From positions 124,001-188,000 of the forward strand of contig JAKQEK010000452.1 in the NCBI GenBank assembly GCA_029558535.1: a stretch of DNA of 64,000 nucleotides, written 5' to 3'. This document shows positions 4,623-44,123 of this stretch, piece by piece. The first letter of the stretch is position 1, and the number at the start of each line of letters is the position of its first letter. The position numbers were made by a program, and so were the translations under genes. Origin of the DNA: Bacteroidota bacterium (lineage in GTDB: Bacteria; Bacteroidota; Bacteroidia; Bacteroidales; ML635J-15). The notes under the pieces are model-generated. The model ran no database searches. It was not told where the DNA came from and worked only from the letters and a program-made list of their open reading frames with translations.

Positions 4623-4769
4623 GGTGTATGGCGTTTGTTTTAGGCCAAGGTCGACTTACAATTCTTTTGTATTGTTTGAGGCGGGTCGGGTAGCGTTGTT
4701 TTACTCGCAAGCTCGTGAGCTAAAGGTTGACTTGATTTCTTTGATACTTTCTTGATCAAGCAAGAAAGT
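4623..4769 (-). repeat. Dispersed structured element, copy 1 (minus orientation)
   Basis: Read on the minus strand, it starts with a hairpin at 4769-4746 (arms ACTTTCTTG and CAAGAAAGT, loop CTTGAT), followed by an ATCAAG that could pair with the loop. It continues with a CCGCCTC block, an AATTGTAAGTCGACC block, and ends with GGCCTAAAACAAACGCCATAC. The same order occurs on the plus strand at 43713-43829. The hairpin arms of the two copies differ at three base pairs and all three changes keep pairing. Confidence 0.75.
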
Positions 4770-4910
4770 AAAAATAAAATAATACATACTTCAATTTCTG
4801 CTTTTGATTTGAATCGTATTTCTTTTTTTACATCATAACATATAAAAAAATAGTCAATACGAAATAATGCTTTGAAAAACAAGCCATATAAATAAATATG
4901 AATATAAATA

Positions 4911-4978
4911 AAAGCTTAAAGAATTTAAAAAATCTGTATTTGTTCATTTATTTTCTCTACATTTGTCAAAACTAAATT
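4911..4978. repeat. 68-bp direct repeat, right copy, with ompH-like promoter
   Basis: This is the second copy of the 4189-4256 repeat. It includes TACATTTG at 4958-4965, a match to the Bacteroidota -7 element TAnnTTTG, about 20 bases before the ATG of the OmpH-like gene at 4987. This copy is therefore likely the functional promoter region. Confidence 0.8.
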
Positions 4979-4986
4979 CTTTGGAT

Positions 4987-5622
4987 ATGGAAAATTCAAA
5001 ATTTACAAAAATTTCGCTTATCGCAAGTAGTATAGCTTTAGCAACAAGCATTGTAGTACTTATAATTTCAATAACCGGTACTAAAGCAGGAAATAACGAT
5101 GATCCAAAACAAGCTGGCGCTATTACTGTTGATTCGACAGGCATAGCAAATATTGCATATATAAATCTGGATACTTTGCTTTTAGAATATAGATATTCTA
5201 TAAAACTTAACGAAGATTTTCTTACCGAACAAGCAAAAGCTAAAGGTACTTTGGAATCTCGCATGAAATCTTTTGAAAAAAAGTATAATGAGTTTTCCGA
5301 AAAAATGCGTTTGGGAAGTTTTATCAGCCAAGCCAGTATGGAAACTCAACAAAATGAACTAATGCAGGAACAGACAAATATTCAAAAACTTGAAGAAGAT
5401 TTAACAAATCAACTGCTTGAAAAACAATCTGCTATGAATGCCGAATTGTATGATACAGTTATGAATTTTGTCAAGGAATTCAACAAAGATGGTCGCTATA
5501 TGCTAATTTTAGGTAATGCTGCAGGTAGCAGTATTTTGTATGCAGAACCGGGAATGGATATTACTCGCGAAGTCCTTGACGAGCTCAATAAAAGGTACGC
5601 AAAATCACAAGAAGGAAAATAA
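4987..5622 (+). CDS. OmpH/Skp-like periplasmic protein with membrane anchor
   Basis: I chose the ATG at 4987; a TTG eight codons upstream lies inside the promoter repeat. The 211-residue product has an uncleaved-looking hydrophobic N-terminal segment (about residues 8-31), then an IAYINLDTLL strand typical of the OmpH family. A long charged coiled coil follows (about 75-150) and a C-terminal strand region (YMLILGNAAGSSILYAEPGMDIT) matches the OmpH end. Family members are trimeric periplasmic chaperones for outer-membrane proteins. Here the anchor suggests an inner-membrane-tethered form. The stop is 6 bases before the next gene, so the two are probably co-transcribed. Confidence 0.8.
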   Translation: MENSKFTKISLIASSIALATSIVVLIISITGTKAGNNDDPKQAGAITVDSTGIANIAYINLDTLLLEYRYSIKLNEDFLTEQAKAKGTLESRMKSFEKKYNEFSEKMRLGSFISQASMETQQNELMQEQTNIQKLEEDLTNQLLEKQSAMNAELYDTVMNFVKEFNKDGRYMLILGNAAGSSILYAEPGMDITREVLDELNKRYAKSQEGK

Positions 5623-5628
5623 TGTGAT

Positions 5629-6876
5629 ATGAGTTTTGCTGACAACTATTTTAGCAGATTCAAGTCTCTTCCAAAAATATTTAATAATAATCCCTGTCCA
5701 GACACAGGGATTATTGTTGTAATACCTTGTTTTGATGATGAGTTTATATTTCAGACATTAGAATCTCTCGACAACGCAAATCCTCCCAATTATAAAACTG
5801 AAGTAATCATCATTGTAAATTCAGGCGAAAACTCGTCACAGCAATCGGTTGAACACAATCGTATTATTTATGATGAATTAAGACAAAAGCAAGACCGTCT
5901 ATTTTATAAGAATTTTGATCTCCTTCCTTATTTAATTGAAAATACTCCGAAAAAAATTGCTGGGGTAGGATTTGCACGTAAAACCGGAATGGATGAAGCT
6001 GTAAGAAGATTCAATGCAATAAAAAAGGCTGAAGGTATAATTGTTTCACTTGATGCAGACTGCAAACTCGATAAAAATTATTTCGACGAAATTATCGGAT
6101 ATTATGAAATAAATCCTAATTCAGGAGCCTGTACAATTCAATTCAAACACGATTTTGATCAAAACATTTATTCCGAAGAAGTAATTTCGGCTTGTATGCT
6201 GTATGAAATTTACTTAAGATACTTTCGTCTTGCATTGAAATATTGCGGATTCCCCTATCCTTTACATACTATAGGCTCGTGCTTTAGTGTAACAGCACAA
6301 TCATATATAAAAGCCGGCGGGATGTCTCAGCGTCAGGGTGGTGAAGATTTCTATTTTTTGCACAAACTTGCACTAATGACACAGATTGGAGTAATTAACA
6401 AGGCACTTGTTTTTCCCTCTCCACGCATATCTTACAGAGTTCCTTTTGGTACAGGACCCGCAGTTAGCAAAATCATTAAAGAAAACAAATACGATGTTTA
6501 TAATTTCAAGCTATTTGGAATTATAAAAGCATTTTACGATAATTGCGATAATTTCTATTTTCAATCTACAGATATTAAGTCTCTCGTCCCTAAAGAAATT
6601 ATCGAATTTATTGGTATAGATAAAATTGTATCCATCATCTCCGATTGTTTAAAAAACACCAATAATCTGCAATCATTCAGGAAGCGTTTTTATTCAAAAT
6701 TTGATACTTTTTTCATAATTAAATTTTTGAATTCTCATGATTATAGTCGGGTATTTCCTCCCGAAAATGTTCTAACCGCAGCCTCGCAACTACTTGACGA
6801 ATATTGTAACATGCAATCTGAAAAGACAGTCAAAAATGTTTATGATGATATATATTTAAAGGATATTGAGTTGTAA
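5629..6876 (+). CDS. Family 2-like glycosyltransferase
   Basis: This 415-residue protein has a GT-A nucleotide-sugar fold start (IIVVIPCFDDEFIFQTLESL, residues 23-42). An acidic motif SLDADCKLD near residue 144 probably binds metal and the nucleotide sugar. A GGEDFYFLHKLA segment near 238 matches the family's catalytic acidic region. No membrane segments are evident, so it is probably cytoplasmic. The substrate cannot be read from sequence. It sits directly downstream of the OmpH-like gene, which does not suggest a pathway. About 30 residues after the GT domain are unassigned. Confidence 0.8.
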   Translation: MSFADNYFSRFKSLPKIFNNNPCPDTGIIVVIPCFDDEFIFQTLESLDNANPPNYKTEVIIIVNSGENSSQQSVEHNRIIYDELRQKQDRLFYKNFDLLPYLIENTPKKIAGVGFARKTGMDEAVRRFNAIKKAEGIIVSLDADCKLDKNYFDEIIGYYEINPNSGACTIQFKHDFDQNIYSEEVISACMLYEIYLRYFRLALKYCGFPYPLHTIGSCFSVTAQSYIKAGGMSQRQGGEDFYFLHKLALMTQIGVINKALVFPSPRISYRVPFGTGPAVSKIIKENKYDVYNFKLFGIIKAFYDNCDNFYFQSTDIKSLVPKEIIEFIGIDKIVSIISDCLKNTNNLQSFRKRFYSKFDTFFIIKFLNSHDYSRVFPPENVLTAASQLLDEYCNMQSEKTVKNVYDDIYLKDIEL

Positions 6877-7424
6877 ATAAATCAACCCTACATATTGACG
6901 TTTTTTTAACATTGTGATTTTGGGATTTTTTTATAATTTGGAATTTTCAATTGTAATTTATCTTTTGGGGATTTGGATTATTATTAAGGTTTTAGTGTGT
7001 ATTTTTGTCATTGTGAGAGCGAGTCACATAAAGGGGACTGAGGAATCAGCCCACAGGCTGATTGTCTCGAAGTCCCCGATTCAAAAAATCATAACAAATC
7101 AAATATCAAAGCCAGTGTGAGAATCAGTGTGAGCGTGAGTGCCTAGAAGGGGACTGAGGAATCAGCCCACAGGCTGATTGTCTCGAAGTCCCCGATTCAA
7201 AAAGTCATAACAAACCCAACACTAAACCCAGTGTGAGAATCAGAGTGAGAGCGAGTGCCTAGAAGGGGACTGAGGAATCAGCCCACAGGATGATTGTCTC
7301 GAAGTCCCCGATTCAAAAGTCATAACAAACCCAACATCTAAGCTGCTAAAACACAAAATAAAACCTCTTTCTTGTTTGCTTAATTCCACGAAATTGACGT
7401 TCTTTGCAAGTTAATTACTTTTTA
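6877..7424. other. Non-coding stretch with tandem hairpin repeats
   Basis: These 548 bases separate the glycosyltransferase from uvrA. The stretch is dominated by three copies of a 116-bp unit, each with a 45-nt two-stem hairpin. The one open frame across it (GTG at 6914) runs into the repeats and has no family likeness, so I do not call it a gene. The ATG of uvrA at 7425 is preceded by AT-rich sequence. Confidence 0.8.
7033..7309. repeat. Three tandem 116-bp units, each with a 45-nt hairpin
   Basis: The hairpins lie at 7033-7077, 7149-7193 and 7265-7309, exactly 116 bp apart. Each has a 7-bp outer stem (GGGGACT with AGTCCCC), an asymmetric internal loop (GAGG opposite GTCTCGA) and an 8-bp inner stem (AATCAGCC with GGCTGATT) closed by CACA. 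The third copy has one change that breaks an inner pair. The flanks (GAGTGCCTAGAA before, GATTCAAAA and TCATAACAAA after) are also repeated. A fourth copy in the opposite direction is at 37471-37515. Confidence 0.9.
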
Positions 7425-10229
7425 ATGCAGGCGACAGATAAAATATCACTAAGAGGGGTCAGAGTACATAATTTAAAAAACATTGACACAGATATTCCAC
7501 ACGGCAAACTAGTCGTTATTACCGGCTTGTCCGGTTCCGGAAAATCTTCACTGGCTTTCGACACTTTATTTGCTGAAGGTCAAAGACGATATGTCGAAAG
7601 CCTTTCTTCTTATGCACGCCAATTTTTGGGAAGAATGAATAAACCTGAAGTCGATTTTATTGACGGCATTCCTCCTGCCATTGCAATTCAACAAAAAACT
7701 AATAACCGTAATCCCAGATCTACTGTTGGTACCAGTACCGAAATATACGAATATCTAAAACTTCTATTTGCTCGAATTGGCAAAACAATCTCTCCTGTTT
7801 CCGGTGTTGAAGTTAAAAGACACTCTGTTGCTGATGTTGTAAATTCTATTCTTAATCTCCCCGAAGACTCCGTTGTTCTTATTTGTTTTCCGTATAAATT
7901 CAATCAAATACATACTCATCAAAAACAACTCGAATTAATTCTTCAACAAGGATACTCAAGAGTAGTTCACAAAAATGAAATTCTTAAAACAGAAGAGTTT
8001 TTGAAATATGATAAATTATCTGATGAAAACGAAATTCATATTATACTAGATCGTGTAATTGTTAAAGAATCTGATAATTTATATTCACGTCTTGCAGATT
8101 CGGTACAAACTGCATTTTTTGAAGGGAATGGTGAATGTTGTGTATTATCTATTGTAAATGAAAATATTAAAACACTCCATTTTTCAAATAAATTTGAGGC
8201 AGATGGAATCAACTTTGAACTACCAACTGAACATCTTTTCAGCTTTAACAATCCAATTGGAGCCTGTCCTTTATGCGAAGGATTTGGAAAAGTACTGGGG
8301 ATTGACGAAGATTTGGTAATCCCCAATAAAAGTCTTTCCGTTTATAATGACACGGTTATGTGCTGGAAAGGTGAAGTGATGCAGGAATGGAAAAATGCTT
8401 TTATTCGTAAATCAGCAAAATACAACTTTCCTGTTCATCGTCCATATTACGATCTCAATAATGATGAGAAAGAACTCTTATGGCGTGGCAATGAAGAAAT
8501 ATCCGGAATATACGCTTTCTTTGATTATCTTGAATCAAAAAAACAAAAGATACAATACCGGGTGATGATATCCCGCTACAGAGGTAAAACAACTTGCCCT
8601 GATTGTAAAGGCAAACGACTAAAAAAGGAAGCATTCTACGTAAAAATAAATGGTTTGTCTATTGCTGATATTATTGACATTTCCTTTACAGATTTGAGAG
8701 ATTTCTTTAAAAACCTAAAACTTAATGAATTTGAAAAAGGAGTTGCCGGAAGACTGATTGAAGAAATTTTAATCAGAATTGATTCAGTTATTGATGTTGG
8801 ATTATCATATTTAACCTTAAACAGACTTTCGTCAACACTTTCGGGAGGAGAATCACAAAGAATAAATCTGGCCACTGTCTTTGGATCAGGTCTGGTAGGT
8901 TCACTCTACATTTTGGACGAACCCAGTATTGGACTTCACTCAAGAGACACAGAAAACCTTATTAGAGTTCTGAAAAATCTTAGAGACAGATCAAACACAG
9001 TTGTAGTGGTAGAACATGATGAAGAAATAATTCGTTCTGCAGATTATATTATTGATATCGGACCACTTGCAGGCAATTTTGGAGGAGAAATTGTTTTTGC
9101 AGGAAATCTTAATGATATGCTAATGAATTCAGACTCTTTAACTGCAAAATATTTAAAAGGAGAAATTAAAAACCCAGTAACAATAAAAGCTAGCCCGTGG
9201 AAAAACTTTATCGAAATAAATGGTGCCAGACATAATAATTTAAAAAATATAGATGTTAAATTTCCGCTGGGAGTTATTACTGTCGTTACAGGTGTTAGTG
9301 GCTCGGGAAAAACAAGTCTTGTAAAAGGTATTTTATATCCTGCCTTAAAAAAACAATATGATTATATTTCTGATAAAACCGGTGAATTTACAAAATTAGA
9401 AGGTGATTTTAATTTGTGCAGCAATATCGAATACGTAGATCAAAACCCAATCGGAAAATCCTCGAGGTCAAATCCTGCTACATATATTAAAGCATTTGAC
9501 GAGATACGTAAACTTTTTGCCGATCAGAAACATGCCAAAGCTAATGGATATAAACCATCCCACTTCTCATTTAATGTTAGTGGTGGCCGTTGCGAAGTAT
9601 GTCAGGGAGAAGGAGAAATAACAGTAGAAATGCAATTCATGGCTGATGTTCACCTAACTTGCGAAGCATGTAATGGAAAAAAATTTAAGGAAGAAATTCT
9701 GGATGTAAAATATCATGATAAAAATATTTATGATATTCTGGAAATGCCTATTTCCGAAGCTGTTGAGTTTTTTGGTTCAAAAAAGGGAAACAGCGAAAAG
9801 AAAATTGCAGATTTATTACAAAACTATGTTAATGTCGGACTGGGTTATGTAAAACTCGGACAATCATCAAGTACTCTTAGCGGTGGAGAAAGCCAAAGAA
9901 TAAAACTGGCAAGTTTTCTTAGTTCTGCAAACATGAAATCCTCAATATTTATTTTCGACGAACCAACTACAGGACTACACTTTCACGATATAAGTAAATT
10001 GTTGCAATCTTTTGAACAAATGAAAGCCAAAGGACATACTCTTATTATTATTGAACATAATCCTGAGGTAATACGTTTCGCCGATTGGATTATTGATTTG
10101 GGTCCCGGAGGTGGTGATTTAGGCGGAAATCTTATATTCACAGGAACTCCGCAAGACTTGCAAAAGTGTAAAGAATCTGTAACTTCCCGTGTTTTGTATA
10201 ATAATTACAAAACTGCTTTGCATCTTTAA
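7425..10229 (+). CDS. uvrA: Excinuclease ABC subunit A
   Basis: UvrA finds DNA damage and loads UvrB in nucleotide excision repair. The start is ATG 7425; a TTG seven codons earlier is less likely. Walker A motifs are [10 protein letters not shown] near the N-terminus and [10 protein letters not shown] near residue 630; two ABC signatures (LSGGESQR) and two Walker B/DEP motifs are present. The second zinc module is complete (CEVCQGEGE and CEACNGKK, about 725-755). The first keeps only its distal CPLCEGFG pair: the proximal CxxC is replaced by FEADGINFE. As far as I recall, this loss is common in the phylum. The 934-residue length is normal. It appears monocistronic. Confidence 0.96.
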
Positions 10230-10250
10230 TTTTTTGTCGAAAATAAACAG

Positions 10251-10258
10251 TAATTTTG
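10251..10258 (+). promoter_or_regulatory. -7 promoter element upstream of the EF-G gene
   Basis: TAATTTTG matches the Bacteroidota -7 consensus TAnnTTTG about 100 bases before the EF-G start. I see no well-spaced -33 TTTG, so only the -7 element is claimed. A leader of roughly 90 bases would result. Confidence 0.4.
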
Positions 10259-10356
10259 CAAACTTTTTCAGTTTTGATTATTCACAGGCTTGCTACATCG
10301 CAAATTCATTGATTATCAACAGATTAAGAAACAAATTTTAATTTATTAGAATAAAA

Positions 10357-12429
10357 ATGTCATTAAACAAATTAAGAAACATCGGAATTGCTGCTCATAT
10401 TGATGCAGGGAAAACTACTGTTACAGAAAGAATACTTTTTTTTACGGGGACAAATAGAAAAACAGGTGAAACTCATGATGGTGCTGCCACTATGGACTTC
10501 ATGAAGCAAGAACAAGAACGTGGAATCACAATTGCTTCGGCAGCAATTACCTGCAAATGGGACGATCATCAGATAAATCTAATTGATACTCCCGGACATG
10601 TTGACTTTACTATAGAAGTAGAACGTTCTTTGAGAGTTATTGATGGGATGATAGCTGTTTTTTGTGCTGTTGGTGGTGTAGAGCCTCAAAGCGAAACCGT
10701 ATGGAATCAGGCTGATCGTTATCGAGTGCCCAGAATTGCCTTTATTAACAAAATGGACAGAACAGGTGCAAATTTCGAAGAAGCAGTAAATCAGATGAAC
10801 AAATACCTTGACGCTAATGCAGTTCCTCTTCAAATACCTATGGGTGCAGAAGATAACTATTTAGGGACAATTGATATTGTTAAAAAAATAGCATACACTT
10901 TTGAAAATAATCTGAGAAACGAAATTGAAATTCCTGCCGAATACATTGAAGCTGTTAATTCTGCCAGAAATTTTCTTGTAGAAAAACTTGCAGATTTTAA
11001 TGACGAAATAATGGAATACTATTTCGATGGAAAAGAAATATCTGCTGATATGCTTATGAATGCATGCAGACAGGCAACATTAAAACTACTCATCACACCT
11101 GTTTTCTGCGGTGCTGCATATAAAAATATCGGAATTCAGCTTCTTCTCGATGCTGTTGTTAATTATTTGCCTTCTCCAATTGATGTAGGTGTTGTTATTG
11201 GTCACGATATGAATGTTGAAGACAAAACTCATACCCGAAATCCATCAAATAATGAAAGCTTCTCTGCCCTTGCATTTAAACTGATAAACGATCCTTATGT
11301 CGGTCAGCAAACATTTATAAGAATATTTTCAGGAAAACTTGTAAATGGAATGCAGATTTACAATTCATCAAAACTAAAATATGAAAGAGTCGGAAGGATT
11401 TTTAGAATTAAAGCAAAAGAACGCGAAGAAATTCATGAAGCCGGAGCCGGCGAAATTGTTGCTTTGGTTGGAATGAAATTTACCAAAACCGGTGACACAC
11501 TATGTGACCCTGACAATCAATTATTGTTGGAATCTATTCATATCCCTGTGTCAGTAATTGAACTAAAAATTCAACCTGCCAAACAAAAAGACAAAGAAAA
11601 ACTTGGCGAAGCACTGTCGAAACTTGTGAATGAAGACCCCTCCTTTAAAGCCAGATTCGATGAAGAAACAGAAGAAACTATCATTTCGGGAATGGGTGAA
11701 CTGCATCTCGAAATTATTGTTGACAGGCTAAAAGACGAATTTAAAGTTGATGTAGAAGTAGGCGAACCTTCGGTTGCGTTCCGTGAAACTATTACAGAAA
11801 TTGTTGAATCCAACTATAAGCATTCTAAACAGACAGGTGGTAAAGGACAATTTGCTCATACACTTATCAGAATGGAACCTAATTCAGGAAATGGTTACGA
11901 ATATGTAAACCTGATTAAAGGAGGTACAATTCCGGGCGAATATATTCCATCTGTTGATAAAGGTATTCGTAAAATTATGGATAGAGGCATTTTAGCCGGA
12001 TTCCCGATAGTGGACGTTAAAGTAGTCTTGTTCGACGGTGCATATCATCCTGTAGATTCATCAGATATGGCTTTTCAGGTATGTGCTCAGGAATGTTTTA
12101 AACAAGGATTTAAAAAAGCCAAACCTGTTTTATTAGAACCTATGATGAAAATCGAAGTAAATACTCCGGACGAATATATTGGTGATGTTGTCGGAAATTT
12201 AAACAGAAGACGTGGTAAAATAGAATCTATGAGGCGTTATCGTAAAGGTTCACAAAAAATTATCGGACTGGTTCCATTAATGGAAATGTTTGGTTATTCT
12301 ACTCAATTAAGAAATATTAGTTCAGGTCGTGCAAATTATTCAATGGAATTTTATAAGTATATGTTACTCCCAATTGCAGTACAGGAGGATGTCCTCAAAA
12401 ATTTAGAAGCAAAGAAGCAAAACAAATAA
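10357..12429 (+). CDS. fusA: Translation elongation factor G
   Basis: This 690-residue GTPase drives ribosomal translocation. The G1 motif AHIDAGKTT is near residue 13, the switch region has [10 protein letters not shown]3 is DTPGHVDF and G4 is NKMDR. Domains II-V follow, including GMGELHLEI and a C-terminal [13 protein letters not shown] region. It is not in a str operon here: no rpsL, rpsG or tuf is nearby. The C-terminal wording ([18 protein letters not shown]) differs from the usual main EF-G. It could be the phylum's second EF-G form rather than the main one; I cannot decide without a tree. The following S1-protein gene is 32 bases downstream. Confidence 0.92.
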
Positions 12430-12461
12430 TAAACAATTATCTTTACAAAAATTTCATTACA

Positions 12462-13301
12462 ATGCCTATAGCAGGAAAAAATAACAGTCTGAAAGTTATC
12501 AAAGTTAACGGAGATATTTTAACTTTTGATGCCGGCAAATACGGCGAAATAGAAGTTGTTAACAACGATTTAATTTTAAAATATACCGAAGGTCAATTTA
12601 CTGACGTATTTCTACTTCCCGATTCCGACGGCACTATTAAGGGATTTCTTGGACAGGCAATAGTCAATGCCGGTGAGTTTGCCAAACTCAAAGTAGTTGC
12701 AAATACGAAATTCGGTAGTTTCTTTGACATGGGTATTGAAAAAGACCTGTTTTGCCCTTTTGCCGAGCAAAAAACAACGCTTGAAATAAATTCTTATTAT
12801 CTCGTTTATGTTTATATTGACGAAATAACAAACAGACTGTCTGCATCAACCCGTATAGATAAATTTATTTCTGATGAGAAACCCGACCTGACAGAACAGC
12901 AATCGGTTAATATTATTATCTTAAATAAATCACAACTGGGTTATAATGCTATTGTTGAAAATAAGTACTACGGTTTACTTTATGATAATGAAGTTTTTAA
13001 AGAATTAAAACCCGGACAAAAACATACTGCTATCATAAAAAAAATACGAGAAGACAATAAAATTGACTTAAGACTATACAAAAATGATCATAATGACATT
13101 TCAGAGTTTGAGACAATGATATTAAATTATTTAAAAGCTCACGAAGGAAAAATGACTTTAAACGATGAATCTGACCCTCAGGACATATACGATGTTTTTG
13201 GAATATCAAAAAAGAACTTTAAGAAAGCACTAGGGGCTTTATATCGTAAGGGCGTTATTGATCTTAAAGATAAAATTATCAAATTATTGGATAACGCTTA
13301 A
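12462..13301 (+). CDS. CvfB-like S1 RNA-binding protein
   Basis: The 279 residues have the order seen in CvfB/YitL proteins: N-terminal S1-like barrels, including the characteristic KFGSFFDMGIEKDLFCPF stretch (about 85-105), a further S1-like segment near 165-205, and a C-terminal winged helix (about 215-279, with a DIYDVFGISKKNFKKALGALY turn). Family members bind RNA and influence expression of other genes in Firmicutes. The role in Bacteroidota is unknown to me. It lies 32 bases after the EF-G gene and is probably co-transcribed, which fits a translation-related role. Confidence 0.85.
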   Translation: MPIAGKNNSLKVIKVNGDILTFDAGKYGEIEVVNNDLILKYTEGQFTDVFLLPDSDGTIKGFLGQAIVNAGEFAKLKVVANTKFGSFFDMGIEKDLFCPFAEQKTTLEINSYYLVYVYIDEITNRLSASTRIDKFISDEKPDLTEQQSVNIIILNKSQLGYNAIVENKYYGLLYDNEVFKELKPGQKHTAIIKKIREDNKIDLRLYKNDHNDISEFETMILNYLKAHEGKMTLNDESDPQDIYDVFGISKKNFKKALGALYRKGVIDLKDKIIKLLDNA

Positions 13302-13441
13302 TCTTAATCTTTCGGTTACATATCATTTTTATTTCTTTGATATAAAAATCATTTTTCTAACAAAAACTGCATTTTTTATAAAAAAACTTAGCTTTTTTTG
13401 GTTTTGAATTGAAAAAAACCTTTATTTTGTAGTTAGATTAA

Positions 13442-13472
13442 AAACACCTAACCCTGTGTTTATAATCTAGGG
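13442..13472 (+). promoter_or_regulatory. Possible H-type pseudoknot in the RRM gene leader
   Basis: Bases 13442-13447 (AAACAC) can pair with 13456-13461 (GTGTTT). The hairpin loop's CCCT (13452-13455) can pair with AGGG (13469-13472). The loops are 4 and 7 nt and the stems would stack, which is the H-type pseudoknot arrangement. It lies about 30 bases before the start codon at 13505, downstream of a weak -7-like TATTTTG at 13423-13429. It could be an autoregulatory site, but short pairings arise by chance in AT-rich leaders. Confidence 0.35.
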
Positions 13473-13504
13473 AATTAAATTATGTTTTTACTAAATTATT
13501 TTTT

Positions 13505-13759: not shown

Positions 13760-13787
13760 ACAAAACAACATCTGGATTAAAAAACTT

Positions 13788-13811
13788 AAGCGGGTTTGAC
13801 CCGCTTTTTTT
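13788..13811 (+). terminator. Rho-independent terminator of the RRM gene
   Basis: AAGCGGGT and ACCCGCTT form an 8-bp stem with a TTG loop, followed by a T run. It ends at the stop of the convergent gene and may serve one or both directions; the T run is clear only on the plus strand. Confidence 0.9.
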
Positions 13812-14679: not shown

Positions 14680-14743
14680 CCGTTATTGTTTTATAATTTG
14701 CAAGTTAGTAATTTCTTCTTAAAAAATAATATTTAATATACTC

Positions 14744-34040: not shown

Positions 34041-34153
34041 AATTATTCAGAATTGCGATTTTTCGATATTATTCAACAAAATAATTTGTTAAACTAAATT
34101 AATAAAACTAATATTACATCCAAAATAAATATTTATAATTAAAGATTAAGAAT

Positions 34154-34603: not shown

Positions 34604-34657
34604 TAATATATTTGATTTTACCGAATTAAACATTTCATTATTTAATTCTTCTCGCTA

Positions 34658-35404: not shown

Positions 35405-36075
35405 TGGATGCCAAAAATGTTAACATAGATGATTCATGGTATGCTGAATTGAAAGATGAATTCAATAAAGAATATTTTGCAAAACTTAAGGCTTTTTTAG
35501 TTGAAGAAAAGAAAAATAATGTTGTTTACCCACCTGGTTCACAAATATTTTCTGCATTTAACTACACACCATTTCATAAAATCAAAGTAGTAATATTAGG
35601 ACAGGACCCGTATCATGGTCATGGACAGGCGCACGGTTTGTGTTTTTCGGTACCTCAAGGCATACCAACTCCTCCGTCTCTTGTTAATATTTATAAGGAA
35701 TTAAAATCTGATATTGGTTTTGAAGTTCCAAATTCGGGCAATCTTGAATCCTGGGCAAAACAAGGCATTTTTCTTCTCAATGCGACGCTTACAGTAAGAG
35801 CAAATACAGCAGGTTCACATCAAAATAAAGGTTGGGAAATTTTTACGGATAATGTAATTAAAATTATAAGCGATAAACGTGAGAATGTCGTTTTTGTGCT
35901 TTGGGGCAGATATGCTGCTGCAAAAGAAAAACTTATAGACGATTCCAAACATATAATTCTTAAAGCTGCTCATCCTTCCCCACTTAGTGCTTATAATGGT
36001 TTTTTTGGTTGTAAACATTTTTCAAAAATCAACAATTTTTTAAATAACAAAGGAATAGAACCAATTCGTTGGTAA
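35404..36075 (+). CDS. ung: Uracil-DNA glycosylase, family 1
   Basis: Ung removes uracil from DNA to start base-excision repair. The 223 residues hold the catalytic water-activating motif GQDPYHGHGQAHGLCFSV (Asp near residue 67). The Leu-intercalation and His motif HPSPLSAYNGFFGCKHFS is near 198. The uracil-binding segment LLNATLTVRANTAGSH is near 128. Length and motifs are standard. It overlaps the preceding gene by one base. Confidence 0.97.
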   Translation: MDAKNVNIDDSWYAELKDEFNKEYFAKLKAFLVEEKKNNVVYPPGSQIFSAFNYTPFHKIKVVILGQDPYHGHGQAHGLCFSVPQGIPTPPSLVNIYKELKSDIGFEVPNSGNLESWAKQGIFLLNATLTVRANTAGSHQNKGWEIFTDNVIKIISDKRENVVFVLWGRYAAAKEKLIDDSKHIILKAAHPSPLSAYNGFFGCKHFSKINNFLNNKGIEPIRW

Positions 36076-36136
36076 ATTTTCATTCTTCTTGTTTTGCAAT
36101 ATTCCATTTTTATTATTTTTGCAAAAAAAAACCGAT

Positions 36137-36583
36137 ATGATACCATTTCATTTAACTGAATATATAGAGCAATCTATTAAAGAAATAGGGATTGATCCCT
36201 ACACATCACGTGGCAAAAAAGATGGACAATGGACAATTAAATACAAAAATTCGACAGTGTGGATTGACTTATTCAGTTATCCGGAAAAACCTGAAAAGTA
36301 TTATTTTCAGGTTATGAGTCCTTTGTGCAAAATGGTTGACAGCAAAACAGAAGAATTTGCAATTGATCTTCTCGAAATTAATTATATGATGTACGGAAGT
36401 TGGATTTGCAAGAAAGAAGGATGGATTTATATTCTCAGTCTTCGTGAAGCCGACAATCTTCAAAAAGCAGAAGTAGATGCTACAATTGACAGAGTTGCGA
36501 TATACAGCGCCGACTACTGGGGAAAACTGTCGTTCAAATACAAAAATTGCTGGATAAAAAATGAAGAAGAGAAGATAGAATAA
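36137..36583 (+). CDS. YbjN-like small protein
   Basis: The ATG at 36137 is preferred to an upstream TTG because the residues before it read like untranslated leader. The 148-residue product has a core of alternating strands and helices with a WTIKYKNSTVWIDLF start, PEKYYFQVMSPL and GSWICKKEGWIYILSLREA. The pattern resembles YbjN/type III chaperone-like proteins. No signal peptide or catalytic motif is visible. It is 61 bases after ung and could be co-transcribed with it. Confidence 0.65.
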   Translation: MIPFHLTEYIEQSIKEIGIDPYTSRGKKDGQWTIKYKNSTVWIDLFSYPEKPEKYYFQVMSPLCKMVDSKTEEFAIDLLEINYMMYGSWICKKEGWIYILSLREADNLQKAEVDATIDRVAIYSADYWGKLSFKYKNCWIKNEEEKIE

Positions 36584-36637
36584 TACAAATTTTAACATTT
36601 TTTTAAATATTTTGCACAATTTTTGTAACAAAAGCAT

Positions 36638-36645
36638 TATATTTG
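36638..36645 (+). promoter_or_regulatory. -7 promoter element of the ECF sigma factor gene
   Basis: TATATTTG followed by C fits TAnnTTTG. The nearest TTTG boxes are 12 and 23 bases upstream, so the -33 element is uncertain. The leader would be about 80 bases and contains AAAGGAGACC at 36680-36689, too far from the ATG to be the ribosome site. Confidence 0.5.
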
Positions 36646-36732
36646 CGTAATAAAATTTGAAATAAAACTTAAAAAAGAAAGGAGACCATATATCGAAAGA
36701 ACTTCTACCCTTTAACTTTAAATAATATAGTT

Positions 36733-37320
36733 ATGAACCTGACAAGTTATTCCGACCAGGAACTTATCGAGAGATTCATCAAGGGTGAGAAGGCATGTAT
36801 GGAAACTCTAATACAACGCCACAAGAAAAAAGTTTATTCTTACATCCTTATTACAGTTAAAAATACTCATGTTGCTGATGATTTATTTCAGGACACGTTT
36901 ATTAAAGTTATTAACTCCCTTAAATGCGGGACTTATACCGACAAGGGAAAGTTTATCAGCTGGGTTATACGAATAGCTCATAATATTACCATTGACTATT
37001 TCAGGAAAGAGAAAAATTTGAATACATGTTCGAACGATGATACCGAACTTGATTTGTTTAACTCAGAAAAATTCTCGGATGAAAACATCGAAGATAAAAT
37101 TGTGGGAGAACAGATTGTCAGCGATATTAAAACTTTAATTGATTATCTACCGGCAGAGCAGAAAGACATTATCATGATGCGTCATTACGGAGGCATGAGT
37201 TTTAAAGATATAGCAGAACAGACAAATGTAAGTATCAATACAGCACTTGGAAGGATGAGGTATGCTCTGATAAATTTGAGGCGTATTGTTGAAGAGAAAA
37301 ATGTGATACTTACAAAATAG
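36733..37320 (+). CDS. ECF-type RNA polymerase sigma factor
   Basis: The 195-residue protein has sigma region 2 (about 15-85: ADDLFQDTFIKVINSL and FISWVIRIAHNITIDYFRKEK) and region 4 (about 130-185: LPAEQKDIIMMRHYGGMSFKDIAEQTNVSINTALGRMRYAL). The linker is short and acidic, as in group 4 sigma factors. No anti-sigma gene is adjacent; a downstream hairpin terminator closes the transcript. Standalone ECF factors with long leaders are frequent in Bacteroidota, and regulation through the leader is possible. Confidence 0.93.
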   Translation: MNLTSYSDQELIERFIKGEKACMETLIQRHKKKVYSYILITVKNTHVADDLFQDTFIKVINSLKCGTYTDKGKFISWVIRIAHNITIDYFRKEKNLNTCSNDDTELDLFNSEKFSDENIEDKIVGEQIVSDIKTLIDYLPAEQKDIIMMRHYGGMSFKDIAEQTNVSINTALGRMRYALINLRRIVEEKNVILTK

Positions 37321-37384
37321 AAAGAATAAGCTTTTGATTTGGGCTTTTTCTTAAAACGGCAAATTATTTTTTAACTTTATGCAA

Positions 37385-37416
37385 ACTCTAACAAGGAATC
37401 TCTTGTTGGAGTTTTT
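37385..37416 (+). terminator. Rho-independent terminator of the sigma factor gene
   Basis: AACTCTAACAAG and CTTGTTGGAGTT form a 12-bp stem (one T-G pair) around GAATCT, followed by TTT. It lies about 65 bases after the stop. Confidence 0.85.
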
Positions 37417-37963
37417 ATTTGACTTTGATTTATAAACCATTTCCAACGGTTTTGTCATGATTTTTGAGCCGGGGGCTTCGAGACAATCAGCCGAAAGGCT
37501 GATCCCTCAGCCCCCAATTCAAAAATACACGCCAAAACCTCATTCCTCGTTGTTTTAACTTCGAAATTCCAATGTGTGACAAGCTGGTTTTGTCATGATT
37601 TTTGCCACCTCGACCATGCTCGGTGACCTAGCAAAAATACACGCCAAAACCAAAACACTCAAACTTTACCCTAAGCAAAATCAAAGAGTACAAAATTCAA
37701 ATTACAATTCGTAGATTTTCATTTTTTTTGATTTCGGTTTGCTTAGAACAAGGGTTTGGGCTGAAAAACTTTGGGGATTTTTTTGATTTGCTATTTTAAG
37801 GGGGAGAAAAAAATGTTTTTATTTGATATTTACTTGTTCAGTATAAAGTGTTCCATTATTGTCAACAAGGATGCGGAAGTAGTTGTCGCCATCTAAAAAC
37901 AATTTCATCATTTCTTTCTCCTTGGCATAGTTTTTATTATAACTTTGCAAAAAACATTTAACA
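37417..37963. other. Non-coding stretch with two composite hairpins
   Basis: Two hairpin units lie at 37448-37539 and 37586-37651. The rest (37652-37963) is AT-rich with no gene that I can support. A -7-like element is not clear before the secreted-protein gene at 37964. Confidence 0.8.
37448..37651 (+). repeat. Two hairpin units with shared outer arms and different cores
   Basis: Both units (37448-37539 and 37586-37651) start GGTTTTGTCATGATTTTTG and end CAAAAATACACGCCAAAACC. GGTTTTG can pair with CAAAACC and ATTTTTG with CAAAAAT, giving a long interrupted stem. The first core (37471-37515) is the 45-nt hairpin also found three times at 7.0-7.3 kb, in opposite orientation and with a GAAA loop. 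The second core is a different short hairpin (CACC...GGTG). Confidence 0.8.
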
Positions 37964-38392
37964 ATGAAAAAGTTTATTTTTATTTTACTAACTGTGTTTT
38001 GTATAACTCACTTATCACATAACGAAGTCAAAGCACAAGCAACACCCGAAGAATTAATGGATGCATTTTTTCAAATCTTCGCCGAAGATGTTAATCAGGC
38101 AGTTGATTTTCTTTTCGCTACAAATCCAATGATTGACCCAAATCAACCAGGAATAAAATCAATAAAAGAGAAGTTTGAATTATCAAGAAAATTGTTAGGA
38201 AATTATTACGGATATGAGATTATAAATATTTATCATGCCGGAGACTCGTATGTAAAGTACATATACTCCTTAAAATATGAAAGACAACCAGTAAAATTTA
38301 TTGCAGTTCTATACAAACCTAAAGATAAATGGAAAGTTCAGAACATTAATTTCCAGGATGATATTGAAGTAGAATTTAAATTGTGGGAATAA
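37964..38392 (+). CDS. Small secreted protein of unknown function
   Basis: The 142-residue protein has a signal peptide (about residues 1-25, ending VKAQA). The rest has an alpha-beta pattern with LMDAFFQIFAEDVNQAVDFLF and KFIAVLYKPKDKWKVQNINFQDD, which recalls DUF3887 or cystatin-like NTF2 folds used by small secreted proteins. No catalytic residues are visible. It stands alone between repeats and a convergent peptidase gene. Confidence 0.7.
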   Translation: MKKFIFILLTVFCITHLSHNEVKAQATPEELMDAFFQIFAEDVNQAVDFLFATNPMIDPNQPGIKSIKEKFELSRKLLGNYYGYEIINIYHAGDSYVKYIYSLKYERQPVKFIAVLYKPKDKWKVQNINFQDDIEVEFKLWE

Positions 38393-38504
38393 AACCCTAA
38401 ATAGCCTTTGCAATTACATAATGGGACACGAATTATGCGTAATGCATAACTTATTTCTCACTCCTCATGCGTCAGAGTTCGAATTTAAACATGTAATTTA
38501 ATTT

Positions 38505-40217
38505 TTAGTGCCGAAATTCGGCTCTATATTCAGATTTATTGTTAAGGTTGTCTTCAACTACGCCTTTGAAAATATAATCATCAGCAAAGGTGAAATGATC
38601 ATCAAAATAATAAGTAAGAGTTTTTTTTCTCGGATCATATTGTCCAAGAACCCATTTATCGTTAATATACATATCATAATTTTTGATTCCTGACAAATCA
38701 TCCTCTATTTTAACCGAAATTTGTGATGCTTTTGAAAGGTCTTTACCCTCACTTATATTAACAGGTGTAATTTTGGGAGCTGTAGTATCAATCCACAAAT
38801 AAAATTCTCCAAAATATGAGGATTCTGCTTTTATAAAATTCTGCTCGATTACAGAATTAAGATATCTGAAATTTCCGTTATGTACCCTGCAAATAAACAA
38901 TTTATCTCTAAATCTCATTAACTCTTCATCCAGAAAAAACATTATTCTGAAATCTTTTTTTAGCATTATAAAATCCTCACCTATAATAAATTTATCAGAA
39001 TATTTTGATTTGGATTTCTTTCCCACTTTCAAATAATAATCACTAAATAAGCTTGCTGAATCAAATTCAATCCTAAATCCTCCGTCAATCCAGACCAAAC
39101 TCTCTTCTGTTTTTAGCAATCTTCCTCCCGTATTCACAACTTCCTGATATTCATTACTATCACCGGTAAGATTAAAAACCAGTTGCGAAGTATTTGAGTT
39201 ATAATCTTTAACAATGATTTTCATTTTCTTATTTACACCCTTAGAAATATAGAAAATTCCATCATTAACAGAATATTCATAAACGGGTAAATCATTCCCT
39301 TTTTCTATAAATAATTTTTGAACATGCATTGATTCATCTAAATAATACTGATAATCAAACATACTGTTTTTTGCTCTTTGTTTACTAAAATCAAGCTTCT
39401 GAATTATGGAATGAAAAATTAGTTGATCTCCATCAAAAAGCTTTACTGATTCTGCTCCATATCTATTACTCGTACCATCCATCCTGTCAACATAAGCCAG
39501 CCCTACTCCTATCATACCCACAACTTGTGGCAATTCTTTTTCACAAATATAAATTCCATCCTTATCCTTTTTTAACTTAAAAATTTGCTTTTCATTTTTT
39601 CCACCGACAAAAGAATTATTATTAAGAGGATACAAAACCAGAAATGTAAATTCTGGTGGACGAGAATCGTAAAACGAATAAATTGTTGTAATTGGATTTA
39701 TTGGCATTTCCGAAAGAGTTTCACGAATTTCAAAATGCAAATGAGGTCCTTCAGATTGTCCGGTATTACCTGTATATGCGATTATGTCCCCCTTCTTATA
39801 CTTAAACATATCGGGGGGCAATGTTGTGTCAATTGAAAATGAAGATCGTTCATATTGGATTTTTCTCACAAATTTTTGTATTTCAGGATTATATTTACTC
39901 AAATGTGCATAAACTGAAGTATATCCATTTGGATGATTAATATAAATAGCATTCCCATAACCCCATGGCGAAATATTTATTCTTGAAACATATCCGTCTG
40001 CAATAGCTAAAACATCTCTTCCTTCAGAATAAGTACTAAAATCAACACCTGTATGAAAATGTCTGTTTCTTGGTTCGCCGAAATTACCCGAAAGTACCGG
40101 ACTTATATTTAAAGGTAAAATAAAATAATTTTTCAAACCGGTTTCCTGTCCCGACACACGCGAAACCAATAACAACACAATAAACAGAGCTTGAAATATT
40201 TTAATTCTCATCATCAT
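38505..40217 (-). CDS. M23 family metallopeptidase with C-terminal beta domains
   Basis: The 570-residue protein has a signal peptide (three Met codons at the start; the third, 40211, is equally good). The lysostaphin-type peptidase domain spans about 35-185. Zinc ligands are visible in HTGVDF (His and Asp) and HLHFEIRE, with a YAHLSKYN motif between. The C-terminal 380 residues are beta-rich and may bind the substrate. Such enzymes cut peptidoglycan cross-bridges, or act as inactive activators. It is divergent from the coiled-coil/zapA operon, which fits a cell-envelope role. Confidence 0.9.
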   Translation of the reverse strand: MMMRIKIFQALFIVLLLVSRVSGQETGLKNYFILPLNISPVLSGNFGEPRNRHFHTGVDFSTYSEGRDVLAIADGYVSRINISPWGYGNAIYINHPNGYTSVYAHLSKYNPEIQKFVRKIQYERSSFSIDTTLPPDMFKYKKGDIIAYTGNTGQSEGPHLHFEIRETLSEMPINPITTIYSFYDSRPPEFTFLVLYPLNNNSFVGGKNEKQIFKLKKDKDGIYICEKELPQVVGMIGVGLAYVDRMDGTSNRYGAESVKLFDGDQLIFHSIIQKLDFSKQRAKNSMFDYQYYLDESMHVQKLFIEKGNDLPVYEYSVNDGIFYISKGVNKKMKIIVKDYNSNTSQLVFNLTGDSNEYQEVVNTGGRLLKTEESLVWIDGGFRIEFDSASLFSDYYLKVGKKSKSKYSDKFIIGEDFIMLKKDFRIMFFLDEELMRFRDKLFICRVHNGNFRYLNSVIEQNFIKAESSYFGEFYLWIDTTAPKITPVNISEGKDLSKASQISVKIEDDLSGIKNYDMYINDKWVLGQYDPRKKTLTYYFDDHFTFADDYIFKGVVEDNLNNKSEYRAEFRH

Positions 40218-40274
40218 TAGAATAAATATTTTGCAAAACTAACATCATATCTTGCATTTGAAAAAAAAATCAAC

Positions 40275-40282
40275 TATTTTTG
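40275..40282 (+). promoter_or_regulatory. -7 promoter element of the coiled-coil/zapA operon
   Basis: TATTTTTG fits TAnnTTTG, about 18 bases before the ATG at 40300. A TTG at 40252-40254 with 20 bases of spacing may be the -33 element. Confidence 0.5.
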
Positions 40283-40299
40283 TAATAGATAATAAATAA

Positions 40300-40593
40300 A
40301 TGAACGAGGAGTATAACAGATTGATTTTAAGAATGAAAGAAAACATTCAGAAGTTAATTTTGTTATATACAAAAGAAAAGGAAAAGAATAAAGAATTATC
40401 AAAAGAGGTAAAACACATTAGTAATGAACTTAATATATATATAAATAAAAACAAGGAAGTAGAGAAAAAATATGAAAATTTAAAATTGGCTAAAGCATTA
40501 GACGGGATAAATGGAGAAGATAAGGAAGCCAAATTGAAATTGAATAAAATAATACGGGAAATTGATAATTGCATTGCTCTTTTAAACAAATAA
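40300..40593 (+). CDS. Short coiled-coil protein upstream of zapA
   Basis: The 97 residues are almost all charged heptads (KENIQKLILLYTKEKEKNKELSKEV... to the end), so a parallel or antiparallel coiled coil is likely. The position six bases before zapA, and the size, recall ZapB, which is a small coiled-coil partner of ZapA at the FtsZ ring; in this phylum a similar gene commonly precedes zapA. Sequence alone cannot prove this. Confidence 0.75.
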   Translation: MNEEYNRLILRMKENIQKLILLYTKEKEKNKELSKEVKHISNELNIYINKNKEVEKKYENLKLAKALDGINGEDKEAKLKLNKIIREIDNCIALLNK

Positions 40594-40599
40594 AGTTTA

Positions 40600-40905
40600 A
40601 TGGAAGACAACAAGTTAATAATAAATATCAGTATAGGTGAAAGGATGTATCCTATCAGTATTGAAAGAGGCGATACAAGACGTGAAGAACTGATTCGTAA
40701 AGCATCTCAATCAATAAATGACACTTTGTTACAATATAAAAAAAGAGGATATAAGAACAAAGACGATCAGGATTATCTAGCCATGACAGTAATTATGTTT
40801 GCTGTCAAGCTTCTCGAAAACGAATCGAAAGAAGACATATCACCAGTTATTAACGAATTGAAAAAAGTAAATTTTGAACTTGAAGAAGTTTTAACAAAAG
40901 AGTAA
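40600..40905 (+). CDS. zapA: Cell division protein ZapA
   Basis: The 101 residues match ZapA: an N-terminal INISIGERMYPISIERGDTRREELIRKAS stretch and a C-terminal dimerising coiled coil (about 65-101). ZapA cross-links FtsZ filaments. It follows the coiled-coil gene by six bases and precedes a 6S-like RNA and rny, an order I recall from other Bacteroidota. Confidence rests on the start motif and the context. Confidence 0.9.
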   Translation: MEDNKLIINISIGERMYPISIERGDTRREELIRKASQSINDTLLQYKKRGYKNKDDQDYLAMTVIMFAVKLLENESKEDISPVINELKKVNFELEEVLTKE

Positions 40906-40939
40906 ACGTTCTTTAAAATATAATAGTAATATACATATT

Positions 40940-41146
40940 ACCCGTATTGGTTCTTTAAAGGTTGCAAAACTCAACACTAACTAATTAGGAACAAAGCTCA
41001 GTTTATCTACGGCAGGCCTAAATTAATTCTGTTCGCAGTTTTAAACTACCTAAGTAGTCATAGGAAACCGGAAATTGTCTGGCCGTTCCGCCCATGTTTA
41101 TACAGGGGTTTTTCTAACATTAAAGAATTTAATGCGGGTTTTTTTA
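40940..41146 (+). ncRNA. ssrS: 6S-like RNA between zapA and rny
   Basis: The 261-base gap holds a structured transcript candidate of about 207 nt. ACCCGTATTGGTTCTTT (40940-40956) pairs with AAAGAATTTAATGCGGGT (41122-41139) over 17 pairs with one bulge, and a T7 run follows. Inside, GTTGCAAAAC and GTTTTTCTAAC extend the closed stem. A large closed rod with an internal bubble is the 6S plan, and the zapA-adjacent position fits 6S RNA in many bacteria. 6S RNA binds RNA polymerase as an open-promoter mimic. No clear TAnnTTTG promoter lies before it. Confidence 0.6.
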
Positions 41147-41166
41147 ATTTAAAACAAATAATTTAT

Positions 41167-42708
41167 ATGGGAACACTAACAATAATTATTATTGCGACAG
41201 GAGCCTTTTTAGGCGGAGGGGCTATTTCTTATTTTGTATGGGATAAAGCAATAGCAAAAAAGAAAAACAAAATTATTGCTGAAGCATCAACAGAAGCAGA
41301 AGTTATTCGAAAAGAGAAGGAGTTACAGGCAAAGGAAAAATATTTGCAACTTAAGTCCGAGCATGACCGACTAATTAATGAAAAAAACCAAAAGATTTCG
41401 GCAGCCGAAACAAGAATTCAGCAAAGAGAAGCAAGCATTACGACAAGAATTGAGGAGACTCAGCGAATGAAAAAGGAACTTGATATTCTTCGCGAAAACC
41501 TCAACAAACAATTGGAAAGAGTTGAAAAGCGAACTGAAGAACTTGAAAAACAGCATAAAGAACAAATTGACAAACTTGAAGCAATATCGGGTTATTCAGC
41601 TGAAGAGGCTAAAAAAGAGTTGGTAGAATCTCTTCAGGAAAATGCAAAATCAGAGGCTATTGGACTTATCAATGAGATAATTGACGAGGCCAAAATGACA
41701 GCAAACAAAGAGGCTAAAAAAATTGTATTAGAGACGATTCAGCGTGTAGCGACAGAAACAGCTATTGAAAACGCAGTCACAGTGTTTAACATCGAAAGCG
41801 ATGAGCTTAAAGGAAGAATCATTGGCCGCGAAGGTCGTAATATTAGAGCCTTAGAAGCTGCAACCGGGGTAGAAATAGTTGTAGATGACACGCCAGAGGC
41901 AATTCTTTTATCTGCATTCGACCCTGTTAGAAGAGAAATTGCACGCCTATCATTGCATCAATTGGTAACAGACGGAAGAATTCATCCTGCCCGTATCGAA
42001 GAAGTCGTAAATAAAACAAAAAAACAGATTGAAGAAGAAATAATCGAGATAGGTAAACGTACTACAATTGATTTAGGTGTACATGGACTACATCCTGAAC
42101 TGGTAAGAATGATTGGTAAAATGAAATACCGTTCATCTTATGGGCAGAATTTGCTGCAACATTCAAGAGAAGTTGCAAACCTAAGTGCAATAATGGCATC
42201 TGAATTAGGTTTAAATCCAAAAATTGCAAAAAGAGCAGGTTTGTTGCATGATATCGGAAAAGTTGCTGACGAGGAACCTGAATTGCCACACGCAGTTTAT
42301 GGAATGAAATTGGCAGAAAAATTCAAAGAAAAACCTGAAATATGTAATGCTATCGGAGCACATCATGACGAAGTTGAAATGAACAATCTAATCTCTCCTA
42401 TTGTTCAGGTTTGTGACGCAATTTCGGGAGCCCGTCCGGGTGCAAGACGCGAAATAGTTGAATCATACATTAAACGTCTGAAAGATTTGGAAGCGTTGGC
42501 ATTATCATATCCGGGAGTTCTCAAAACTTATGCTATTCAGGCAGGACGAGAATTAAGAGTTATTGTCGGAAGTGAAAAAATAAGTGATGCAGATTCTGAA
42601 AAACTAAGCTACGAAATAGCTAAACGAGTTCAGGACGAAATGACTTATCCGGGACAAGTAAAAATTACCGTTATAAGGGAAACAAGATCTATAAATTACG
42701 CAAAATAG
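41167..42708 (+). CDS. rny: Ribonuclease Y
   Basis: RNase Y is a membrane-anchored endonuclease that starts mRNA decay. The 513 residues show an N-terminal membrane segment (about 3-24) and a long charged coiled coil (about 35-160). A KH domain ([29 protein letters not shown], about 215-245) precedes an HD domain with [10 protein letters not shown] (His-Asp near 362) and GAHHDEVE. Length matches the family. Its stop overlaps the GTG start of the epimerase gene by one base, so the two are coupled, although that gene opens a polysaccharide locus. Confidence 0.96.
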
Positions 42709-43697
42709 TGAACGGAGAAATTTTAATATCTTCAAAAGTTCTTGTAACAGGTGGTGCAGGTTTTATTGGCTCTAACATTATCGAAAAGCTCTTAAAACAA
42801 GACAATTTTGTTGTTTGTCTTGATAATCTGGCAACTGGTAAAATGTCTAATATCGAAGCCTTTACGAATAACAAAAACTTCCGGTTTATTAATGGAGATA
42901 TCCGCGATATAAAAACTTGTGAGAAAGCATGTAAAGGTATTGACATTGTTCTCCATCAGGCAGCTTTAGGTTCAGTTCCACGATCAATTAAAGATCCTGT
43001 TACAACTAATCAGGTAAATATTGATGGTTTTATAAATATGCTTATTGCAGCCCGTGATAATAAAGTAAAAAGATTTGTTTATGCTTCAAGTTCATCAGTT
43101 TACGGAGATTCTAAGGAACTTCCAAAACATGAGAATAAAATAGGAAATCCTTTATCACCTTATGCTGTGACAAAATCCGTTAACGAATTATATGCAAAAG
43201 TGTTTGGGAATCTTTATGGCATGGAAACAATAGGATTAAGATATTTTAATGTTTTCGGCAAAAATCAGGATCCGGATGGTGCTTATGCCGCAGTATTTCC
43301 AAAGTTTATAAGCACTTTAATAAAACATAAGGCGCCTGTAATTTTTGGTGACGGGACACAATCACGTGATTTTACATACATTGCAAACGTTGTACAGGCA
43401 AATGAGCTTGCTGCTACCACATCAAATCCTGATGCCATTAATACTGTATTTAATATTGCTTACGGTAAGAGTATTAGTCTTAACGAAATAACTTCGGAAT
43501 TAATTAAAGTTTTAAGTGATTTTGATTCTAAAATTAATGAGATAAATCCTGTTTACGGACCTTTACGTCAAGGAGATATTAAAGATTCGCTGGCATCTAT
43601 TGATAAAGCTAAAAGACTTTTGGGATATATGCCGGCATATAATGTTCATGATGGGCTTAAACTTGCTGTAAAATGGTATTTCGATTGTTTGAAATAG
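42708..43697 (+). CDS. NAD-dependent UDP-sugar 4-epimerase (WbpP/TviC type)
   Basis: This 329-residue short-chain dehydrogenase/reductase starts with GTG at 42708, overlapping the rny stop by one base. The NAD motif is TGGAGFIGSN (about 14-23). ASSSSVYGD and the catalytic YAVTK (Tyr near 152) follow. AALGSVPRSIKDP is characteristic of UDP-N-acetylglucosamine/galactosamine 4-epimerases of the WbpP/TviC group. It supplies precursors for surface polysaccharides. The last 40 codons recur as a truncated copy 467 bp downstream. Confidence 0.88.
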   Translation: MNGEILISSKVLVTGGAGFIGSNIIEKLLKQDNFVVCLDNLATGKMSNIEAFTNNKNFRFINGDIRDIKTCEKACKGIDIVLHQAALGSVPRSIKDPVTTNQVNIDGFINMLIAARDNKVKRFVYASSSSVYGDSKELPKHENKIGNPLSPYAVTKSVNELYAKVFGNLYGMETIGLRYFNVFGKNQDPDGAYAAVFPKFISTLIKHKAPVIFGDGTQSRDFTYIANVVQANELAATTSNPDAINTVFNIAYGKSISLNEITSELIKVLSDFDSKINEINPVYGPLRQGDIKDSLASIDKAKRLLGYMPAYNVHDGLKLAVKWYFDCLK

Positions 43698-44123
43698 AAT
43701 TTTCAACATCATACTTTTTCCCTTGATGGAAAAAGTAACAAAAAGATCAAGGGGAAACTATGCTTCAACCCGCCTCGAATAAAACAATGTAATTGTACGT
43801 CAACCCGGCCTAAAACAAAGGCCATACCTTATCCTGATCCTGTCTTTGTTTTAAAGAATGTCACAAAGTGACAGCCTGACACAATTACTAATGTTTTATT
43901 CTCACCACCGAAACAGGCCCGCAGTTTCCCCATGGCCTACACACAAAGCGACCTCGTTAATTTGCAGATAATATGCTAACTTTATCGCATTCAGGAATAT
44001 CTTATCATTTAAAAGTTAGGTAATTCAAATTACTAAATGCTTGTAAAATAGATTCATTAGAATCTGTTGATAAAGCTAAAAGACTTTTGGGATATATGCC
44101 TGCATATGATGTGTATGATGGGC
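43698..44123. other. Non-coding junction with dispersed element and epimerase remnant
   Basis: The gap contains the plus-strand copy of the dispersed element (43713-43829). A short hairpin TGTCAC/GTGACA lies at about 43859-43873. A truncated copy of the epimerase gene end follows. No intact gene is visible. Confidence 0.8.
43713..43829 (+). repeat. Dispersed structured element, copy 2
   Basis: The hairpin at 43713-43736 has arms ACTTTTTCC and GGAAAAAGT around CTTGAT. Downstream ATCAAGGG can pair with the loop region CCCTTGAT. A CCGCCTCG block, an AATTGTACGTCAACC block and GGCCTAAAACAAAGGCCATAC follow. Copy 1 has the same order on the minus strand at 4769-4623. Confidence 0.75.

Follow-up and report, generated by a model that had tools for sequence, protein, structure and literature searches.

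Two copies of a dispersed repeat lie in opposite orientation in a 64,000-nucleotide stretch (hereafter the window) of a 5.8-Mb metagenome-assembled genome (MAG) of a Bacteroidota bacterium. Judged by their sequences, both are probably non-autonomous IS1634-type transposons that carry an older structured pseudoknot core. They would resemble miniature inverted-repeat transposable elements (MITEs), with an IS1634-family DDE transposase supplying their mobility in trans. Insertions of this type leave direct duplications that range from tens of base pairs to about 200 bp, which presumably arise because the target is nicked at widely separated positions. The cargo would be the older core: a hairpin (P1), a pseudoknot pairing between the hairpin loop and a downstream sequence (P2), a linker matched to P1, and a variable stem (P3). 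P1, P2 and the linker may be present simultaneously as a three-strand fold, and the folding molecule may be a single DNA strand, exposed during replication or transposition, that an enzyme yet to be identified would recognize.

Shared ends and long target duplications

Three genes for IS1634-family transposases, with open frames of 499–547 aa, exceed the cut-off in the MAG. One element (L308) has inverted ends TCCTGACTTGTCCCC that abut a 143-bp direct repeat with one mismatch, and a second (L307) has inverted ends TTTCCTGACTTCATAC that abut a 65-bp direct repeat. The inverted ends of these two elements are 15 and 16 bp long and overlap the direct repeats by 1–3 nt. Young copies of the dispersed repeat in the same MAG have the outer ends TCCCGACTTGTCC.. 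(left, 15 found) and ..GGACAAGTCAGGA (right). The L308 end is the same as the young right end over 13 bp, and the L307 end has its first 9 bases and the inner ATTAGTGCG in common with it.

Enough flanking sequence for comparison was available for nine left and 12 right ends of young copies, in 108 combinations. Five left/right pairs carry duplications, of 90, 59, 148, 166 and 72 bp; four are flush on both sides, and the fifth misses by 3 nt on the right. PMC2266710 gives the usual duplication of the IS1634 family as 5–6 bp, but 8–514 bp for IS1549 and IS1634, and states that no model for the long-duplication reaction had been proposed as of 2008. The duplications of 59–166 bp would be a further natural case of this reaction.

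Both copies in the window have flanking duplications. Copy 1, on the minus strand, is a 641-bp element (4260..4900) between direct duplications of 81 bp that are 87.7% identical and have approximate limits (upstream copy 4901..4981, downstream copy 4179..4259, minus strand). Its right end, TAATAGTTAAAAGTCAGGT (4260..4278, minus strand), resembles the young right ends (..CACTAAT..GGACAAGTCAGGA). Copy 2, on the plus strand, is a 346-bp element (43704..44049) between duplications of 121 bp that are 91.7% identical (left copy 43583..43703, right copy 44050..44170, plus strand); the duplication consists of the 3’ end of an epimerase gene (42708–43697). The right end of copy 2 is also similar to the young right ends. 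A preliminary description had given the elements as 4769–4623 and 43713–43829, which is too short: the duplications put the limits near 4260 for copy 1 and 44049 for copy 2, the earlier extents covered only the 5’ part, and the whole transposon-like unit is about 350–640 bp in this genome.

A search of the host MAG with a 326-nt copy gave 42 BLAST matches, whole and partial, many of them at contig ends, and the aligned copies likewise reach well past the earlier limits. An inner palindrome, ACCGATTGTAAATTTG..CAAATTTATCATCGG (about 4592–4507 in copy 1), is a separable module that is missing from some host copies, including copy 2.

A flanking direct repeat was found at 25 of 127 distinct core sites, compared with 6 of 156 random positions. 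Eight of ten copies from the host genome have one (38–211 bp), as do 17 of 117 sites outside the host, several of the latter being tandem copies of the element itself. Shared or related ends together with long abutting duplications, all shown in the sequences, are why the copies are read as non-autonomous IS1634-type elements, and an IS1634 transposase would be what moves them.

A number of observations weigh against this reading. Transposition itself was not seen. The third IS1634 gene of the MAG had no flanking direct repeat, and neither did two of the ten host copies. Neither window copy has a recognizable IS1634 inverted end on its left; the left duplication of copy 2 ends 9 nt before P1, and the left limits of old copies lie anywhere between 9 and 184 nt before P1 (leaving out L039, which aligned poorly, and L036). 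The two ends of each of the five duplication pairs sit in different loci, so either contigs were misjoined at the repeat or copies have undergone recombination. This is read here as misassembly through the repeat, with recombination between copies as the alternative.

Structure of the core

The core of copy 1 (4731..4769, minus strand) reads ACTTTCTTG-CTTGAT-CAAGAAAGT-ATCAAAGAA-ATCAAG, that is, the P1 hairpin with its loop, the linker and the P2 partner. The core of copy 2 (43713..43751, plus strand) reads ACTTTTTCC-CTTGAT-GGAAAAAGT-AACAAAAAG-ATCAAG, with AACAAAAAG as the linker. The pattern CTTGAT..AGTA..ATCAAG has these two matches in the window, compared with a mean of 0.03 in 100 shuffles. 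The observation in the preliminary description was confirmed at this level. The hairpins are on opposite strands at the places claimed, each of the three arm differences between them is compensated on the opposite arm, both copies have the loop CTTGAT and a downstream ATCAAG able to pair with it, and the three blocks CCGCCTC, AATTGTA.GTC and GGCCTAAAACAAA are found in both. In the predicted fold of copy 2 the latter two blocks are 5’ stem strands within one long rod, and CCGCCTC is mostly unpaired. Stem P3 of copy 2 is formed by GGGGAAACT (43751..43759, plus strand) and AGTTTCCCC (43923..43931, plus strand), the latter followed by ATGGCC; in copy 1 two extra insertions break this stem.

The proposal that the hairpin is under selection holds up in the larger set. 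Variable P1 positions were Watson–Crick pairs in 346 of 360 cases (permutation mean 222, maximum 244). Among host copies the arms vary with pairing mostly kept (one copy, L036, has an insert in the hairpin loop), and further copies with preserved pairing were found in both the host and other genomes. A scan of 1.66 Mb looked for hairpins in which the complement of the six-base loop follows an A-rich linker; of its 157 matches, 156 have the loop CTTGA(T/C/A), in a sample that is biased because most loci had been fetched with CTTGAT patterns. The last loop position paired in 122 of 122 cases (T-A 106, C-G 9, A-T 7), a count that has the same fetching bias and in which pairing was not demanded. 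In 30 aligned cores the covariation score was 0.243, compared with 0.059 when shuffled (0 of 500 shuffles reached it) and at most 0.052 when slid.

P3 begins either at ATCAAG or roughly four bases further on. A perfect stem of at least 8 bp was found in 46 of 73 rows, compared with 10.7% when the downstream sequence was swapped; a search that tolerated gaps and mismatches found the stem in 106 of 176, compared with 26 of 176 controls.

The linker follows the hairpin arm. Their lengths are correlated (r=0.84). Linkers that contain a G have a run of A as long as the one in the arm in 19 of 19 cases (permutation mean 8.6, maximum 17), and in 30 of 32 when the set is widened. When 80 distinct arm/linker pairs were sorted by arm type, a G was present in the linkers of 0 of 9 all-A arms, 19 of 25 inner-G arms, 11 of 40 arms with C and 2 of 6 with T. 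Neither longest-match nor register tests could tell a direct-repeat reading of the linker from a mirror (triplex-like) one; the tally by arm type speaks for the mirror. A third strand running along P1 would produce such matching.

On sequence comparison, the hairpin, loop pairing and third stem covary and the linker tracks the arm. Several results are less favourable. Two of the five covariation measures were not above shuffles; pairs changed on both sides numbered 4 (matched by 189 of 500 shuffles) and further pair types 11 (165 of 500). Five of the six P2 pairs are invariant, and in the young subfamily of the host, with loop CTTAAC and partner GTCAAG, one P2 pair is unmatched, so pairing is not preserved throughout. 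One host copy (L058) has no left P1 arm, and another (L035) combines an inner-G arm with an all-A linker.

DNA or RNA

The evidence leans towards DNA as the folding molecule, without proving it. Selection on a plus-strand RNA would be expected to raise the number of G-T mismatches, and it is not raised. In P1 there were 6 G-T and 4 A-C mismatches in 1282 pairs (in a set restricted to two mismatches per hairpin), and in P3 106 G-T and 163 A-C, compared with 53 and 70 in the control. The lack of a G-U excess is itself no proof of DNA.

The core could instead be a structured non-coding RNA on the plus strand, copies of which are spread by mobile elements. It would be an H-type pseudoknot with its A-rich loop in the minor groove of P1. 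H-type pseudoknots have two stems and an A-rich third loop that matches stem 1 in length; a P1 mostly of 8–11 bp, a P2 of 6 bp, and a linker that matches P1 in length suit this geometry on the plus strand. The predicted fold of copy 2 as plus-strand RNA also has a z of −6.7 (−6.4 as DNA and −4.5 as minus-strand RNA). This explanation is nevertheless considered unlikely, as neither P1 nor P3 has an excess of G-U, the variant just below P1 is C-A (18 of 148) and never T-G, and orientation to genes is near random. The G-U counts and the varied position relative to genes likewise do not point to a small RNA, which the check suggested in the preliminary description implied. Nothing in Rfam matched the element above the gathering score in the window and 17 loci, and one microRNA match was below the threshold. 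The only Rfam matches in the window are a tRNA and a signal recognition particle RNA (Bacteroidales small SRP, 57186–57293), both away from the copies.

Orientation was counted at 107 of 148 sites (10 more are inside an open reading frame, and 31 lack flanking sequence or a gene on one side). The neighbouring genes are arranged −− at 34, +− at 29, ++ at 23 and −+ at 21. This near-random distribution also makes it very improbable that the core is a transcription terminator or mRNA-end element, which a T-rich stretch seen by eye after P3 on the other strand would suit. Strand concordance of neighbouring copies, among those listed, is weak (30 vs. 17, p 0.04), which counts against the preferred reading of a folding DNA strand; on the same comparison a replication-strand bias is weak and was set aside.

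Distribution among the Bacteroidota

The statement in the preliminary description that related CTTGAT...ATCAAG patterns recur in Bacteroidota was borne out by a search of other genomes with a stringent core pattern, which gave at least 118 stretches. Among 80 listed titles, 74 name taxa that are taken here to belong to the Bacteroidota or Balneolota. The other six are an unassigned MAG, Orenia, Propionigenium, and MAGs of Nitrospirae, Williamsia and Ignavibacteriae. Propionigenium maris, presumably a member of the Fusobacteriota, has two real-looking copies (L082), perhaps acquired by transfer. A perfect P1 of at least 7 bp was present at 83 of 101 distinct sites, and one genome has 19 exact-pattern copies. 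A loose pattern matched in 158 of 395 genomes, but many of its matches look like chance, and for this reason it was not taken as a measure of prevalence.

The core is not confined to the transposon of the window, and in other Bacteroidota it is found independently of IS1634. No IS1634 match above the cut-off was found in 12 other core-bearing genomes, and two of them had weak matches. An element from Parabacteroides matched three plasmid records (76–77%) and no phage record. Comparison of sites within one genus revealed a hotspot with other content, and no clean empty site. This interval, between msrA and a helicase gene (L320–L330), holds the element in the G038 species, a GIY-YIG endonuclease sequence in G054 and G026 (in G026 with inverted ends GGTCATCC..TAATTCG), and other content in G163. 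In genus g68 (L250–L276, L317) some copies have a second hairpin upstream of P1, before the core, with the same stem (TACTTTTGT-CGGC-ACAAAAGTA) and a different loop.

No neighbouring gene recurs at 133 loci beyond families that look common, the largest cluster having 10 loci; one cluster, at 8 of the 133, resembles NDP-sugar epimerases, judged from its sequence. Two candidate partners were rejected: a GIY-YIG endonuclease was within the locus at only 1 of 118 stringent-pattern loci, and reverse transcriptase matches were found in just 5 of 12 core-bearing genomes, the host included.

The core might also be akin to the repetitive extragenic palindromes (REPs) moved by a REP-associated tyrosine transposase (RAYT) or another IS200-type Y1 transposase. 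The copies are indeed dispersed, intergenic and structured, with lineage-specific stems. However, a relaxed core was found in only 1 of 64 Y1/RAYT neighbourhoods (about 1.5–3 kb per side, some overlapping, and not split by subclass, such as 2.6), and 3 of 16 core-bearing genomes had no Y1 match, one of these with 17 exact-pattern copies. No consistent GTAG/GTGG foot was seen at the stem, judged by eye and without a count. This origin is held to be highly unlikely.

Another candidate is a site resembling integron attC, at which some recombinase yet to be identified would act on a single strand. It draws on genome G271, in which 10 copies and two fragments lie within about 30 kb on one strand while the gene strands switch. 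This array (L313–L314, G271:C1:598000-637000) includes genes for glycosyltransferases and radical SAM proteins. The attC explanation is unlikely, since neighbouring copies in other genomes are often on opposite strands, attC boxes were not recognized by eye, and the genes between the copies belong to these ordinary families.

The preliminary description knew of no assigned function, and the core was not described in any paper that literature searches found, most subscription papers lying outside them. Judged by its description in PMC9769881, the IS982 MITE of Cardinium is a different element. The overall picture given earlier was partly right: the selected hairpin, the loop pairing, the recurrence in Bacteroidota and the lack of a described function stood, and the IS1634-type carrier with its long duplications, the match between linker and arm, and the variable third stem had been missed.

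A broader proposal is put forward tentatively. The core may be a mobile, structured repeat that is so far undescribed and occurs throughout the phylum Bacteroidota. It would fold as a single strand into a hairpin-pseudoknot in which a third strand lies along the stem by a base-matching code, would be moved by an enzyme not yet identified, and would have been captured in this lineage by an IS1634-type transposon. The motif is found in many Bacteroidota genomes, is unmatched in the copy of Rfam searched, and changes in step on three strands; finding out what recognizes it would reveal either a novel type of mobile repeat or a structured nucleic acid of a new kind.

Comparison with known systems

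One close parallel is the IS1634 family (IS1549, IS1634), with which the repeat shares inverted ends (in its young copies), long variable direct repeats and the presence of such a transposase in the MAG. The copies in the window differ in holding a structured core in place of a transposase gene, and their left ends are not recognizable. REP/RAYT systems are likewise dispersed intergenic structured repeats with lineage-specific stems, but the core has a pseudoknot, no GTAG foot that was seen, and no regular RAYT neighbour. Like integron attC sites, the core would be a folded single strand and in one genome forms an array between genes; unlike them, it has no attC boxes visible by eye and its copies are mostly scattered. 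H-type pseudoknots with an A-rich third loop have the same two stems and a third loop that matches the length of stem 1. The core differs from these in having no sign of selection at the RNA level, and in a linker that repeats the A-run of the stem, followed by a G at points where G or C stands in the stem.

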